42,722 bases of DNA from Bdellovibrionales bacterium. Lineage in GTDB: Bacteria > Bdellovibrionota > UBA1018 > CAIMNF01. Shown here one piece after another: positions 30,216 through 35,985 of the stretch; position 1 is the first letter of the stretch, and every line of letters begins with the position of its first letter. Both the position numbers and the translations under genes were made by a program. The stretch covers positions 1 through 42,722 of the forward strand of contig JAGWXK010000010.1 in NCBI GenBank assembly GCA_018969905.1, written 5' to 3'. The notes beneath the pieces are model-generated. The model was not told where the DNA came from. It did no database searches and saw only the letters and a list, made by a program, of their open reading frames with translations.

Positions 30216-31388
30216 TTAAAGTTTTGAGTTCCAGCCCGGATCAGTGCACATCGCCATAAATGCGGCCCTCCATGCATTGATCGCCCTGACTTGTGCCGCA
30301 CTCGGGGAGTTTGGTCCAACCATCACCTGATAAGTTGACCCTGTTGGACCGAATTGCCATTGAATTCCTGAACTCCCATCGCAGTTTCCCTCTAGTTCGA
30401 CGCGCTCAGCGTCGCTCATTTGATCAATGATTTGATCGCTCTTTCGGATGAGGCCCAAGAGCTCCTCAAGGAATCCCGATACAGGCGGCCCAAGTTTATT
30501 CACCGGAATCAATGCTTCGGGAAACCAACTTTGAATTGATTTTGTATCAATCTCGAAAACTTCTTCAACCCAGTCGAGCAGTTTTTCGAGGGTACTTGAA
30601 GTCTCTGGGGCTTTTACGTCACCAGACGGGATGCTTTTTTGGGAGTCGTTTGGATGTTCAGTCGAGGATGTCGTCCTTGAAGCCGGGGCACGAGGGATGG
30701 TGCCCCCAGGGTAAAACATTTGGTAGAGGCTGTTGAGATCGCTGTAGTTCGGGGCTGTTAGGGAGCACCAGTTCGAGGTTCCATGCTGTCCGAGGGTCGA
30801 AATATTTGAAGTCTCCTTGGACTCAACCCTGACTTCACTCAGGACATCTGAGTTGGGCTGTTGAGGCACGATCGGCGATCGAATTCGGCTCATGGCGGGT
30901 GCGAATATAATGGCCGGGGCTTGGGTCAATTTGCGGCAAAGACGATGGAGGAGTGCGGCTCTGCCTAAGGCGGGCGCAGGAAAGAATTCTCCCTTGGAGT
31001 ATTCCGTTCTCAAGTCACAGCTGTTGTAGTGAATCGTGCCTTGCGTGTTTCCCTTGTTGGAGTTGAGGTTTGAGTTGATGGAGTTGGGTGGATTGGATGC
31101 CTCATTGTTTGGATCACACGTTCCTCCTGTTTCGCCGTATCGATTTAAGAAAAATAGTGATGAACCTGTTTGCCCTACCAAACTGATGGTTCCGCCCGAA
31201 GCCATGAAGGGACTTAAGGGCATCATGGATGCGCCCGGGAGAACATCATCAAGAAGCCCGAGAATCTCCCGAGCGTCCATCATTCGGTGACTTGGCCAGT
31301 CCTCCGCGTAAAGAGTTGAAGAGGGCAGGATGAGAACCCAGAGGAAGCATTTTTTCAAAAAAGGATGGGTTGATTCAAAAAATCTCAT
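30216..31388 (-). CDS. Exported protein of unknown function, last gene of the cytochrome/DUF1501 operon
   Basis: 390 aa from the ATG at 31388, chosen because MRFFESTHPFLKKCFLWVLILPSSTLYAED is a signal peptide; the longer frame from 31499 overlaps the DUF1501 gene. The middle (about 85-260) is low complexity, rich in Ser, Asn and Pro (for example SNPPNSINSNLNSNKG), and has a few cysteines. The C-terminal part is helical with EKLLDWVEEVFEID and EELLGLIRKSDQIIDQM. No domain recognised. It begins 19 bp after the DUF1501 stop, with AAGGAC upstream, so it belongs to that operon. Confidence 0.6.
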   Translation of the reverse strand: MRFFESTHPFLKKCFLWVLILPSSTLYAEDWPSHRMMDAREILGLLDDVLPGASMMPLSPFMASGGTISLVGQTGSSLFFLNRYGETGGTCDPNNEASNPPNSINSNLNSNKGNTQGTIHYNSCDLRTEYSKGEFFPAPALGRAALLHRLCRKLTQAPAIIFAPAMSRIRSPIVPQQPNSDVLSEVRVESKETSNISTLGQHGTSNWCSLTAPNYSDLNSLYQMFYPGGTIPRAPASRTTSSTEHPNDSQKSIPSGDVKAPETSSTLEKLLDWVEEVFEIDTKSIQSWFPEALIPVNKLGPPVSGFLEELLGLIRKSDQIIDQMSDAERVELEGNCDGSSGIQWQFGPTGSTYQVMVGPNSPSAAQVRAINAWRAAFMAMCTDPGWNSKL

Positions 31389-31407
31389 TTCGATTCCGTC
31401 CTTGATT

Positions 31408-33189
31408 CTATCCCTCGGGAGTGCCCAAAGGGGTGAGGTTGTTTGAATTCGCCACAATTTTTCCGTTTGCAATCTCCAGTAGACTTTTCTGGCGGCCATT
31501 CAGGGTGGCAAGGTCCTCAGGGATTGCAGTGCCGGCATAGAATAAGTTGGCAATCGAAGTACCGAGGTCTTTGAAGCCCAATCGGTGGCCGTCAATGACC
31601 ATCACCGAGCCCCCTTCGCCGCTATATCCGGGGTAATTCTCGGATTGGGTGGCCCATTTGGTTTGTCCGTAAATTTTGAAGCCTTCGATTTTGCCCGAAA
31701 ATAGGGCGGAAAAAGAACCTTGGTCGTTATGGTCGCTTCCGGTGCCGTCGGGTTTGTGAGTTCGGGAAAACTCGGTTGAAAGATGAATCAAGGTTTGGCC
31801 CCAGAGATTGTCACTGATCAATGCCCGCTTCAGTTCAAGCAAAAGAGTGTTCACTGCGGTGTAGAGTGCTGCAGCCCCGAAGAGATTAGGCACCGCTCCT
31901 ATCGAGTGCGCGTCTGATTGAATCACTCTCATAAATCCACTCCCCTGGTAATTCAAATTGAGGGAATCCCCAAGACCCATTTGAAATACCGAAGAAAAAT
32001 TCCGCCTTATGGCGACTTCAATCAAGGCGAAGCGATAAGCAAGGGATTGATGCAGGGTCGCGCCGGTGAGTAAGACTCTGGGATTCTGGGCCGAAAATCC
32101 CGTCATGGCTCCGACATGGGTGATTGTGGGATTTCCTGCCTGAGGGGTTGTCAACCCTGCAAGGGATGAGGAAAGCACTGAGGATCCTGAGTCTTCCGTA
32201 GCTGACCCATCCAGTTTGCCAATCAGGGCAAGGTAGCGTTGAGAGGTATTGATGAAGTCTTGGAGGCTGTCAGCATAGCTGTTTTGATCCACAATGAGTC
32301 GCGCTTGTGAGACCAAGTCATAGACGAGTTCAATCGATGGCAGCTTTTGCTTCTGGTGATTCTTCATGGCAATAAGAGCACGATTCATGGGTTCCCGAAG
32401 TTCTTGGAACCATTTTCTGCGGGCTGCGTTTCCGCATTCGCTCGGATTCATGGAGTTCAAGCTTGATGATGAGTCTTCCAGTCGGCATCCTGGAAGAAAT
32501 GGATGAAGGAGATCTTGAAGCGCTCCTTGATCATCGCCGCCTCGGGCGGTCATCGTTCCTTGGTTTGATCTGAAGTTTCGATTTCCCTTTGTGCCAACAA
32601 TTGCAGGAATCAGAAGCGAATTCCGATTTGCAATGTATCCTCCAATGGTCCGTCCGCCGGGTGCCGGATCAAGGACAAGGCTGGCGGCGAGCGGGTGGGC
32701 CGGATTACTTTCAAGTCCGTACAGGAGAAGGCAGTGATTCGAAATCAAGTCCTTCATTGGTCTGGGGCTTCCATTTGAGGTCGGAATCATGCTTTCCCAA
32801 AGAATAGGCATCCGATAAATATCATTGCCTGCTCCAACCTGTGTGCGCACCAAGTACAAGGATTGGCCACTCAGAACTCTTTCGTTGGAAGCATTTGCTT
32901 CGGTAGAGGGGTGGACAGAGGTCGCGTATCCTGGAAATTTATAGGGCCTCGAAAGATCGCTCAGATTGTCTACCTTGGCGGTAGGGCTCAGGTAACTCCC
33001 GAGTGGACAGAGGCCGCCCCCGATCGAGAGATCGACAAAAAATTTTAGATTTCCGTCCGAGAGACCCTGCGCATTCGCGCGCCCCGATCCAAGGATTGAA
33101 GCCTGTGAACAGAGGATTGCAAGTTCAATTGCGGAAGATAGGAATTCACGACGGGGAGCCGAAAAATTCGGATTAAACGACCGTTTCAT
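31408..33189 (-). CDS. DUF1501-type protein with twin-arginine signal
   Basis: 593 aa from the ATG at 33189. The N-terminus carries a Tat-like motif R-R-E-F-L (SAPRREFLSSAIELAIL), so it is exported folded. The C-terminal part has LIHLSTEFSRTHKPDGTGSDHNDQGSF, the DUF1501 core (EFGRT...GtDHg), a sulfatase/phosphatase-like fold of unknown activity. The start overlaps the upstream cytochrome stop as TAATG, and an upstream frame (to 33219) is only overlap. DUF1501 genes next to cytochrome-type proteins are common in planctomycetes. Possibly acts with the cytochrome on a periplasmic substrate. Confidence 0.75.
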   Translation of the reverse strand: MKRSFNPNFSAPRREFLSSAIELAILCSQASILGSGRANAQGLSDGNLKFFVDLSIGGGLCPLGSYLSPTAKVDNLSDLSRPYKFPGYATSVHPSTEANASNERVLSGQSLYLVRTQVGAGNDIYRMPILWESMIPTSNGSPRPMKDLISNHCLLLYGLESNPAHPLAASLVLDPAPGGRTIGGYIANRNSLLIPAIVGTKGNRNFRSNQGTMTARGGDDQGALQDLLHPFLPGCRLEDSSSSLNSMNPSECGNAARRKWFQELREPMNRALIAMKNHQKQKLPSIELVYDLVSQARLIVDQNSYADSLQDFINTSQRYLALIGKLDGSATEDSGSSVLSSSLAGLTTPQAGNPTITHVGAMTGFSAQNPRVLLTGATLHQSLAYRFALIEVAIRRNFSSVFQMGLGDSLNLNYQGSGFMRVIQSDAHSIGAVPNLFGAAALYTAVNTLLLELKRALISDNLWGQTLIHLSTEFSRTHKPDGTGSDHNDQGSFSALFSGKIEGFKIYGQTKWATQSENYPGYSGEGGSVMVIDGHRLGFKDLGTSIANLFYAGTAIPEDLATLNGRQKSLLEIANGKIVANSNNLTPLGTPEG

Positions 33190-35318
33190 TAGTTGTCCTC
33201 CGCACCGCTTTGAATCCAATCATGGATCGCGGCTTGAATTTCATTGCTCAGGTAAGGTCCACCCATGGGCATTCGAGGATCGCTTGTGCCTGTGATTCTT
33301 TTGTAAAGTTCGCTGTTTTCCGGGTGATTCGGGCTGATAAGATTGCCGAAGTTCAGAAGATAGGCATGGGAAGGTTGGTTTAGGTGGGGGGCGTTTCCGT
33401 CTTGACCATGACAAGATTGACAGTGAGGACTGAATACATAATTCCGAATGTGTGACAATCTTGGCGATAAGGCGTAGTTAAATGTGCTCGAATAGGTATC
33501 ACTTGCGATGCCATCAATGACTTGAACCGTAACGGCGAGTTCAGGACTCCCCGCGGGGAGCGGCGGAGTTGTGCAGTTTATGCTTGAGTCGTTGAAACTG
33601 TTAACAACGCAAGGTTCGGTACCCAGGAAGACCTCAGTCGAGGCGCTGAAGTTGGCTCCCTCTATTGTAATTTGGGTCCCCCCTTCGACCGAGCCTGCTG
33701 AAGGTGAAATGGACGAGATTTGCACATCATTGGATTGGAATCGTTTCCAAGAGCGCGAGCGAAAATATTCAGTTGCGAAAATCTTCTTGATTGCCCATTT
33801 CGGGTCGCCATTGGCCTTGAATTCGGCGGTCAATGCCTTGAGATACTCCCACATTTCGCTGTGGAGCGCAGGGCTTCCCGAAGGTAGATTGGGAAATGAA
33901 TCGGCATCGGATTCGAGTTGGATGCCTGAAATCATGGAAAAGTATCGAACCAGACCGCAAAAATAGTAATCATCTTCATTGGCGAGGGTCTGACCAAGAG
34001 CCTGAAGCTGGGTTGAGGAATCGGATTCAAGTGAGATGGGAATCAAGGACTCCCGGTAACCTCCGTCGATTGCAGAGGTATAGGCGAGTCGGGCAGAACC
34101 TGATCTTCTGAAGAAATTCGCATCCGAGGATGATCTCCAGTAACTTTGGCCCTGAATTACAGGTCCTTCATAGCGATTGATGAAGTGATGAAACCCTGTG
34201 AGATCAACATTGCCAGTGTTGGTCTCAAGGCCACTTGGAATCAAAGGATAGTTTTTCCAGAGGTGGGTTAAAGAGATGTTTCGCAGGCTTGAGGAAAGCG
34301 GATCGGAGTTTGAATGGCAGGCTAGACACTGAAGGTTCTTGCGGAAGCTCGGAATCGCAGAATCCGAGCCGGTCAGAATGTCATTGTTCGGAATCTGTGA
34401 TTGCTTCAGGTAGGGGCCCTTTTTACAAAGCGCGGTATTCATGAGTTCATGCGACCATCGCCTGGCCATGACCAATGCCCCATCGGATTTTCTGTCATAG
34501 GGTAGACCTAAATTCAAAAGCAAGAACGCAGGCTCTCCCAGGTATCCCGCTCCCAGGGTTCGCTGCCAAAGAATCGAATCGCTGGAGGAATCGATATTGC
34601 TTGGAACTCGTCCTGCTGAGCCATAAAAATGAATTGAATCGTTTGGAAAGGTGGTTTTAATCCCCCGAAGTAGTCCGCGGTCCACGCCTCTCAGTAAAAT
34701 CCCATGGGGCTCTTCTTCTGCATTTGCAAGACTTTTTGGGTCGTAAACCTGAAGAACGGTAACGGTGAGCTCCGGTTGACTTAGTGCCTGAAATGGATTT
34801 TCAGGGATTACTCTAAGATTTCCCCAATGGCTGGATACAGACTGATCACGAATGATTCGGAGCATGGAAGATTCGGTAACCGCCAGGCGAAAGTTTGATT
34901 TTAAGAATGCCCAGGTGAAATATCCAGGAGCAAGGCTTGAATCATAGGTCAATCTTGCAAACCCTGTATCGTCGAGCACTTTCCTAAAGTCGTCGTTCTT
35001 GAAAAATGATTCATGAAATTGTTGAATCCTACGGGCAACCTGCTTGGCCTCCTCCGGAGTGATGTTTTGCTTTGCGGTGGAAATGAAACCAGAGGTCGTG
35101 AGAATCTTTGGCGAATCCACAAGATCGTTACACAAAGCAAGAGCCGAAGTGCGGCTTTGAATCGATGCACGGCGAGGATCTTTGGGGGAGAGTCGCAGGT
35201 TGAACACGCTAAAGCACCGGGTAACCAATTCCTGTGGATTAATTGGATCCACCACTGCGGCGAAAGTATCACCGAGAGCGATAAAAACGAGTATAGAGAA
35301 GCAAGCGAAACGATTCAT
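33189..35318 (-). CDS. Exported di-heme cytochrome c-like protein with IPT domain
   Basis: 709 aa from the ATG at 35318 with signal peptide MNRFACFSILVFIALGDTFAA. Two heme-c motifs are visible: CLACH (residues 331-335; 34314-34328) and C-terminal CQSCHG (633-638; 33408-33422) followed by R-M-P-M-G-G, a Met that could be the axial ligand. Between them, about residues 535-620, lies an immunoglobulin-like IPT/TIG domain (ISSISPSAGSVEGGTQITIEGANFSASTEVFLG). The C-terminal part resembles planctomycete cytochrome-C-like domains with PNHPENSELYKRITG and an IQSGAEDN end. It starts the operon with DUF1501 and should act as an exported electron carrier or oxidoreductase. Its substrate is unknown. Confidence 0.78.
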   Translation of the reverse strand: MNRFACFSILVFIALGDTFAAVVDPINPQELVTRCFSVFNLRLSPKDPRRASIQSRTSALALCNDLVDSPKILTTSGFISTAKQNITPEEAKQVARRIQQFHESFFKNDDFRKVLDDTGFARLTYDSSLAPGYFTWAFLKSNFRLAVTESSMLRIIRDQSVSSHWGNLRVIPENPFQALSQPELTVTVLQVYDPKSLANAEEEPHGILLRGVDRGLLRGIKTTFPNDSIHFYGSAGRVPSNIDSSSDSILWQRTLGAGYLGEPAFLLLNLGLPYDRKSDGALVMARRWSHELMNTALCKKGPYLKQSQIPNNDILTGSDSAIPSFRKNLQCLACHSNSDPLSSSLRNISLTHLWKNYPLIPSGLETNTGNVDLTGFHHFINRYEGPVIQGQSYWRSSSDANFFRRSGSARLAYTSAIDGGYRESLIPISLESDSSTQLQALGQTLANEDDYYFCGLVRYFSMISGIQLESDADSFPNLPSGSPALHSEMWEYLKALTAEFKANGDPKWAIKKIFATEYFRSRSWKRFQSNDVQISSISPSAGSVEGGTQITIEGANFSASTEVFLGTEPCVVNSFNDSSINCTTPPLPAGSPELAVTVQVIDGIASDTYSSTFNYALSPRLSHIRNYVFSPHCQSCHGQDGNAPHLNQPSHAYLLNFGNLISPNHPENSELYKRITGTSDPRMPMGGPYLSNEIQAAIHDWIQSGAEDN

Positions 35319-35388
35319 CCCTATTCCCATTATCGGTTGATTAGAATCGGAAAATAAGTGTGTCTTTTCTGACCTGTCATCAAAAATG

Positions 35389-35425
35389 AAAAGCCACCGA
35401 AACCTTTGGCTTCAGTGGCTTTTTA
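35389..35425. terminator. Terminator A, last of the tRNA-Ser tail array
   Basis: Stem AAAAGCCAC...GTGGCTTTT with a CCTTTGG inner stem, flanked by A and T tracts, so it can act in both directions: stop of the minus-strand tRNA-array transcript and of any plus-strand transcript. Confidence 0.7.
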
Positions 35426-35428
35426 AAA

Positions 35429-35652
35429 TGGCGGAGAGAGAGATTCGGCCAAGCGCTCGTCGCGCCATCCGGGCGCTCCTCCGCCTGGCTTCAGGTACAT
35501 CCTGTACCTGGCTGCACATTTGGTGCAGTCGCACTTTTCGGCCATAGTGGCCTCAAAGCCTCGCCATCCTTTCGCTCGCATCAAGCTCGCTCAGCCTGCA
35601 CTGCAGGCCGGTCTGCTCGCTCCTCATCTCTCTCTTTACCCGCTGTGCAAAA
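35429..35652 (-). repeat. tRNA-tail repeat unit 1 (structured, about 224 bp)
   Basis: Minus-strand reading ends with a near copy of the tRNA-Ser 3' end, complement of TGGCGGAGAGAGAGATTCG at 35429-35447 (2-bp shorter run than the tRNA). It shares about 30 bp at this end with unit 2 and has a homologous opposite end (ATCTCTCTC...AAAATTAAAA). Extra hairpins unique to this unit: CAGGTAC/GTACCTG (35492-35510), CTGCAC/GTGCAG (35512-35528), GGCCA/TGGCC (35540-35552) and CCTGCA/TGCAGG near 35600. No credible ORF. Confidence 0.65.
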
Positions 35653-35654
35653 TT

Positions 35655-35691
35655 AAAAAGGCCTCCTGGCAGATGCCCGGAAGCCTTTTTA
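35655..35691. terminator. Terminator B between tail repeats
   Basis: Stem AAAAGGCCTCC...GGAAGCCTTTT with short loop and A/T tracts at the two ends; directly follows unit 2 in minus-strand orientation. Confidence 0.7.
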
Positions 35692-35694
35692 AAA

Positions 35695-35852
35695 TGGCGG
35701 AGAGAGAGAGATTCGGCCAAGCGCTCGGGCTCACTTCACGTTCGCCCTCCGCCTGGCCACCTCGCAAACCTCTGACTCGCGTCACGCTCGTCAGCAGGCC
35801 GTAGGGCCTGACGGTCTGCTCGCTTCGAATCTCTCTCTCCCCGCCCCGAAAA
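35695..35852 (-). repeat. tRNA-tail repeat unit 2 (structured, about 158 bp)
   Basis: Contains an exact 21-bp copy (35695-35715) of the tRNA-Ser 3' end at 35896-35916, including CCA on the minus strand. Its two ends form a 20-bp inverted repeat (35696-35715 with 35826-35845, 19 of 20 paired), so the RNA should close as a long stem with a hairpin CAGGCC..GGCCTG in its loop. Unit 1 is the related copy. I see no credible ORF. Confidence 0.7.
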
Positions 35853-35857
35853 TTAAA

Positions 35858-35892
35858 ATGCCCCCGGAACCGTTGGCTCCGGAGGCTTTTTT
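35858..35892. terminator. Terminator C immediately downstream of tRNA-Ser
   Basis: GC-rich stem GCCCCCGGA..TCCGGAGGC with loop around CCGTTGG and T tracts toward both sides (TTTTTT at 35887-35892). In minus orientation it lies 3-4 nt after the CCA of tRNA-Ser. That it is followed by two more tail copies with terminators suggests some transcripts read through it. Confidence 0.7.
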
Positions 35893-35895
35893 AAA

Positions 35896-35985
35896 TGGCG
35901 GAGAGAGAGAGATTCGAACTCTCGAGGGATGTTACTCCCTGCACCCTTAGCAAGGGTGTGGTTTCGACCACTCACCCATCTCTCC
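35896..35985 (-). tRNA. tRNA-Ser (anticodon GCU)
   Basis: 90 nt. Acceptor stem GGAGAGA pairs with TCTCTCC, discriminator G, encoded CCA (TGG at 35896-35898 on the plus strand). The anticodon loop in the CACCCTT-GCT-AAGGGTG arm gives GCU for AGC/AGU serine codons. The long variable arm (AGGGAGTAACATCCCT region) and the T-arm with GTTCGAATC are as expected for a class II serine tRNA. Confidence 0.93.

Follow-up and report, generated by a model that had tools for sequence, protein, structure and literature searches.

Behind the tRNA-Ser(GCU) gene, on the minus strand of a 42,722-nucleotide stretch of DNA from a Bdellovibrionales bacterium (the window), lie two tandem structured repeats that, on the sequence evidence, represent a TLR family not described before and found mainly in Bdellovibrionota. 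With a probability of roughly 0.6, these are tandem tRNA-linked repeats, conserved in structure, that are produced as RNA by read-through from the tRNA and probably bind protein. A little-understood repeat plan of E. coli is then far more widespread, recurring in predatory bacteria and beyond, behind many tRNAs and behind tmRNA.

Anatomy of the tRNA-Ser(GCU) Locus

An earlier note on this DNA had proposed the minus-strand order tRNA-Ser(GCU), terminator C, unit 2, terminator B, unit 1, terminator A, and ARAGORN, Rfam, a pattern scan and inverted-repeat analysis recovered exactly that order. Here T denotes the tRNA tail from T-loop position 56 through CCA, rcT its reverse complement, and R1 a covariance model built from 25 units; the plan of a unit is rcT, structured core, T. 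The features, all on the minus strand, are as follows.

35896-35985 (-): tRNA-Ser(GCU), the host gene whose 3' tail is copied (ARAGORN; Rfam RF00005, 55.8 bits)
35850-35886 (-): terminator C, hairpin and T-rich tract between tRNA-Ser and unit 2 (pattern scan at 35860-35886; sequence)
35824-35845 (-): unit 2 5' arm, rcT, reverse complement of the tRNA tail over 21/22 positions (inverted-repeat analysis)
35716-35823 (-): unit 2 core, type A, with two-hairpin stem P2, stem P3 and tandem G.A motifs (R1, fold, covariation)
35695-35715 (-): unit 2 T copy, the tRNA 3' tail including CCA, exact over 21 nt
35650-35692 (-): terminator B, hairpin and T tract (inverted repeat 35653-35692, 89%)
35620-35640 (-): unit 1 5' arm, decayed rcT (inverted-repeat analysis)
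35448-35619 (-): unit 1 core, hairpins added to the type-A frame (R1, fold)
35429-35447 (-): unit 1 T copy, 19 nt
35389-35423 (-): terminator A (pattern scan)

The 21-nt 3' tail of tRNA-Ser, CGAATCTCTCTCTCTCCGCCA, thus recurs exactly in unit 2 and as a near copy in unit 1, where the CT run is two bases shorter, as the earlier note had read it. The closing inverted repeat of unit 2 (35696-35715 with 35826-35845, 19/20 complementary) and the complementarity of its rcT arm to the tRNA-Ser gene itself (21/22 at 35897-35918) likewise held, and in folding this arm could pair with the tRNA's own tail or with the copied tail. The fold of unit 2, at -99 kcal/mol (z = -9.7), consists of a long closing helix and two side domains, and that of unit 1 reaches -105.1 kcal/mol (z = -6.1), no shuffle being as stable in either case; R1 matches unit 2 at 35704-35834 with 120.6 bits and unit 1 at 35436-35631 with 62 bits. 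Unit 1 had been described as the same frame with a decayed stem and added hairpins, and the extra hairpins are seen in both the fold and a hairpin scan. Two of them carry GGA pentaloops (35492-35510, AGGAT; 35462-35476, CGGAT; AGGAU and CGGAU as RNA), whereas the conserved loops of unit 2 are GUGAC and GUGAA, with GGA in neither. Over a 62-nt block that includes the tail, terminators A and C agree to about 84%, so the tail is repeated together with its terminator as one module. Beside the locus, the window holds on the minus strand (30216-35330) a gene block with TIG, PSCyt1-like and DUF1501 domains; such blocks are more typical of Planctomycetes and Verrucomicrobia, and this one stands in a Bdellovibrionota genome.

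A Family That Follows tRNA and tmRNA Genes

In a DNA search of the genome to which the window belongs, the core of unit 2 reappeared, at 95% over 114 nt, behind tRNA-Arg(ACG) on another contig, where the arms match tRNA-Arg and not tRNA-Ser. In relatives, which by their named genome records are Bdellovibrionota, the same core lies behind Cys, Asp, Trp, Lys, Met, Val and other Ser and Arg tRNAs. The placement behind tRNA-Ser was correctly observed in the earlier note, which overlooked many other tRNAs and tmRNA as hosts. R1 finds matches in 47 of 291 Bdellovibrionota genomes, 79 distinct matches in all (counts that are not phylogenetically independent), and 61 of these 79 lie downstream of a tRNA, on its strand and within 900 nt, across 28 anticodons; 53 of the 61 sit no more than 170 nt from the tRNA. 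Several matches with no visible tRNA are cut by contig ends, and another (L159) has a host tRNA that is partly hidden by N in its record.

What is held in common between loci is the core, and what is local is the pair of arms, both of which are matched to the neighboring tRNA. Of the 61 units, 41 reproduce 12 nt or more of their own tRNA's tail without a mismatch, and none does so for the tail of another isotype. Similarly, the mean complementarity of the arm, not counting the generic TCG, is 6.7 to the own tRNA and 1.6 to other tRNAs, and none of 2000 permutations attains the observed sum. In most type-A units 111-114 nt separate rcT from T, whichever tRNA is the host; the duplicated stretch runs from T-loop positions 56-58 to CCA or slightly beyond. 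A chance origin of the copies is excluded by the recurrence of exact 21-nt copying at unrelated tRNAs. Beyond the 61, two tmRNA (ssrA) loci are hosts, one in the relative G002 with three tandem units (L190, 155-504 and downstream) and one in the window's own genome with a single unit (L191, contig C6); at both, the units copy the tmRNA 3' end exactly.

In a survey of two genomes, exact tail copies of at least 12 nt stand downstream of 3 of 31 tRNAs in the window's own genome and 12 of 40 in G002, several of them with other core types. The tRNA-Arg(ACG) locus of the own genome (L004) carries tandem units of two core types. A second core type, AAAAATGCC-AGGAG-GGCATTTTTGCACAAACCGCAG, with CAGGANG hairpins in the same rcT/T frame, is seen at L087, L092, L060, L112 and L191, too few sequences for a model of its own. 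In several species of one genus (L113, L068, L075, L091, L092) a hairpin of 100-130 nt, variable in its stem and conserved in its apical part, stands between tRNA and unit, and it seems to travel with the units. The Leu-UAG site is empty in G000 (L115) and filled in the sister species G002 (L091), and given that the junction is the tRNA 3' end, the spacer hairpin belongs to the insert; precise deletion of a unit through recombination of its two T copies would leave an identical picture. Some tRNAs of close relatives have no unit, and thus no single unit is essential. At a further locus (L167, 1450-2700) an ORF resembling an AbiEii-type toxin gene is immediately followed by the tail end CGCACCA and this in turn by a unit, the remainder of the tRNA-Leu gene not being visible within that locus.

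The family extends, sparsely, beyond Bdellovibrionota. A control search of another phylum, that of a genome titled Eremiobacterota, found units in 2 of 148 genomes, behind tRNA-Met and two tRNA-Ser genes with exact tails, and a metagenome-assembled genome titled Marinamargulisbacteria has four matches, at least one of them behind tRNA-Gly with an exact tail; these assignments are those of the record titles, in which binning errors are possible.

Evidence for an RNA and Its Likely Path

The earlier note had looked to covariance across relatives, and it is found. In the R1 alignment 96.1% of cells are paired, compared with 76.7% in shuffles, and 19 of 27 pairs have changed on both sides in a compensatory manner (139 such cells against 40 in shuffles), no shuffle attaining any of five measures. 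Tandem G.A steps and NKGAN pentaloops recur across units, and the G.A motifs and fixed hairpin loops point to an RNA. Likewise, hairpins with NGGAN pentaloops number 34 on the tRNA strand of unit regions, 4 on the antisense strand and 4 in shuffled sequence, an approximately 8-fold difference that, the sequences being related, is to be read as a bias and not as a test of independent events; it points to CsrA as a candidate partner of some units. In one relative (G042) a unit lies between tRNA-Trp and an ORF with a secE-like start, with no terminator in between, and is consequently inside a transcribed stretch.

Each unit would accordingly be a compact RNA of about 130-150 nt (longer for unit 1) closed by the rcT/T helix. 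In the window, the likeliest source of such an RNA is tRNA transcription that continues past terminator C, and in the family at large tRNA and tmRNA promoters would drive unit expression in the same manner. That terminator C separates tRNA-Ser from unit 2 counts against this explanation. The unit RNA would then most likely be excised by the enzymes of tRNA 3'-end maturation, with the T copy as their signal. Folding of the whole read-through transcript by itself joins rcT, in most loci, to the tRNA's own tail and not to the copy; no switch is read from this fold because the tRNA folds first and is modified.

Once freed, the RNA most likely acts through a protein bound at the conserved hairpin loops. 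Where units have GGA pentaloops, as unit 1 does, CsrA would be the best candidate, and it would not be one for those with GUGA loops, such as unit 2. It is a plausible predicted partner of the former because GGA pentaloops can bind Csr/Rsm proteins (PMC4005645) and because csrA is universal here (21 of 21 relatives). CsrA as a universal ligand was rejected, since most type-A loops do not contain GGA: the two conserved loops do so in only 5 of 25 and 12 of 25 units, and most read GUGAN or similar. An exact CsrA SELEX site in unit 1 of the window was also dropped, the sequence there being CAGGAUG, one base shorter.

Origin, Spread, and Competing Explanations

The most serious competitor, possible though improbable, is that these are selfish, non-autonomous repeats with no function for the host, tolerated only behind tRNA-like 3' ends, and that their fold serves their own spread. 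Patchy presence and the empty and filled Leu-UAG sites would be expected of such repeats, as would cores that differ between sister species behind one and the same tRNA, the two core types in tandem at tRNA-Arg of the own genome, and the pattern of intact proximal and decayed distal units. The repeats nevertheless lie on the tRNA strand wherever a tRNA is seen, their loop bias is confined to one strand, and no integrase or other candidate enzyme tracks them: G042, with 8 matches, has no match to a reverse transcriptase or a Y1 transposase, and neither reverse transcriptase (PF00078) nor Y1/RAYT transposase (PF01797) correlates with unit content as a mover. Viral spread was rejected, the core pattern having no match in IMG/VR, and tRNA-primed (PBS-like) priming was rejected because the complementarity is anchored at the T-loop and not at CCA. 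The occurrence of the same core behind different tRNAs with rebuilt ends may reflect adaptation after insertion, whether by selection or by template switching, or rebuilding of the ends at insertion. Tentatively, TLRs might be a cross-phylum class of small elements that insert behind any gene with a tRNA-like T-arm/acceptor end (tRNA, tmRNA) and rebuild both ends from the local tail, one as a direct copy and the other as its reverse complement, by a mechanism unlike known transposition or integration.

A further proposal, of doubtful standing, concerns the arms and is compatible either with an RNA unit or with a selfish repeat: rcT may have arisen incidentally, through template switching of DNA synthesis at imperfect inverted repeats that writes the local tail into the 5' arm, with no selection for pairing. 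The arms are anchored on the T-loop side and extend variably, as such copying would predict, and homogenization of arms by this route is known (PMC8604942). Many arms, however, have GA/GA in place of the Watson-Crick TC/GA step, as in GGGACGAGAA with GAGTCCC, and this is the tandem G.A motif that also occurs within the core and that template copying would not create.

The alternative that the earlier note itself had raised, namely ordinary att-site duplications left by integrative elements whose tyrosine recombinases use T-loop-to-CCA tRNA ends, has become very improbable: tRNA and tmRNA 3' ends are classical integration sites, the tRNA 3' end is directly duplicated here, and the duplicated stretch has the expected span (T-loop 56-58 to CCA or just after), but the matches are 100-150-nt units with no gene in them, tRNAs whose tails differ are followed by near-identical cores, an att duplication does not include rcT, no integrase gene was found beside tRNA-Ser(GCU), and the only three tyrosine recombinases found in the genome have no tRNA in their fetched 2-kb loci, for which reason it was rejected as the main account. 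For annotation, the warning is that a tail duplication behind a tRNA is not necessarily an att site.

Structurally conserved repeats acting as RNA thus remain the preferred reading. With their strong covariation and host-tracking ends, they provide many natural variants by which a regulatory RNA coupled to tRNA synthesis, a protein sponge and a mobile element could be told apart.

Comparison with Known Systems

Like CsrA sponges of the CsrB/CsrC type and the E. coli RNAs RrA, RrB and RrF, some units present GGA in hairpin pentaloops; unlike CsrB/CsrC-type sponges, only some units do so, with few such loops each, and in unit 2 of the window GGA is missing from both conserved loops. Among those E. 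coli RNAs, RrB belongs to the TLRs, arises by read-through and binds CsrA (PMC8144298). The RtT/RttR RNA of Rfam is one processed product of the E. coli tyrT-tyrV TLR array and resembles the window units in plan and in a tandem G.A hairpin. No Rfam family matches the units, and the RtT family has no match at any locus even at E up to 1.

TLRs have reportedly been known from E. coli since 1978, from the work of Egan and Landy in that year and later of Rudd in 1999. The E. coli set comprises 22 copies at ten loci, the 3' 18-19 bp of which are identical to the upstream tRNA or rRNA gene, and its function is unknown except for three 5S-linked copies, which arise by transcription past a terminator, are processed, and are bound in vitro by Hfq and CsrA, whereas the 19 tRNA-linked copies are not predicted to bind CsrA (PMC8144298). 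Tail copies of the 5S type were not seen downstream of 5S in G002 or G055. Unlike E. coli TLRs, Bdellovibrionota units stand behind 28 anticodons and tmRNA, often have a much longer arm, and have a core with no recognizable sequence homology. R1 has no significant match in the ten E. coli TLR loci, although an unfiltered search of the tyrT stretch gives weak but correctly placed scores of 9-12.6 bits, three of the best four being 106-nt matches at the 178-nt period of the tail repeat. Because R1 misses E. coli TLRs and Rfam has no match, the window units are filed as TLRs by plan and not in the RtT family.

The likeness in plan to E. coli tyrT that the earlier note had pointed out proves stronger than it claimed, for the tyrT and tyrV units of K-12 are themselves rcT-core-T, with a GGGGAAGGATGAGAA arm and an exact AATCCTTCCCCCACCACCA tail. 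Their rcT arm reads GGGGAAGG(A/G)TGAGAA, that of lysQ/lysV covers 8 nt and that of the arg units is weaker; a short reverse complement of the local tail is visible at the 5' end of the Tyr and Lys TLRs (L239, L248, L250). The Arg, Lys and Tyr units of K-12 have the stretch GGCCCGAAGGG(C/T)GA in common, and each has its own tail. In both groups, then, units lie directly downstream of a tRNA gene, in E. coli also of an rRNA gene, on its strand, their 3' ends copy the upstream gene (over 21 nt in unit 2 and 19 nt with a 2-nt gap in unit 1), they occur in tandem (one to five per locus in E. coli, two in the window, three behind ssrA of G002), and their cores are common to different tRNA loci, with a local rcT-like arm in tyrT, tyrV, lysQ, lysV and weakly arg. 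The plan, including its locally matched ends, is common to Bdellovibrionota units and E. coli TLRs.
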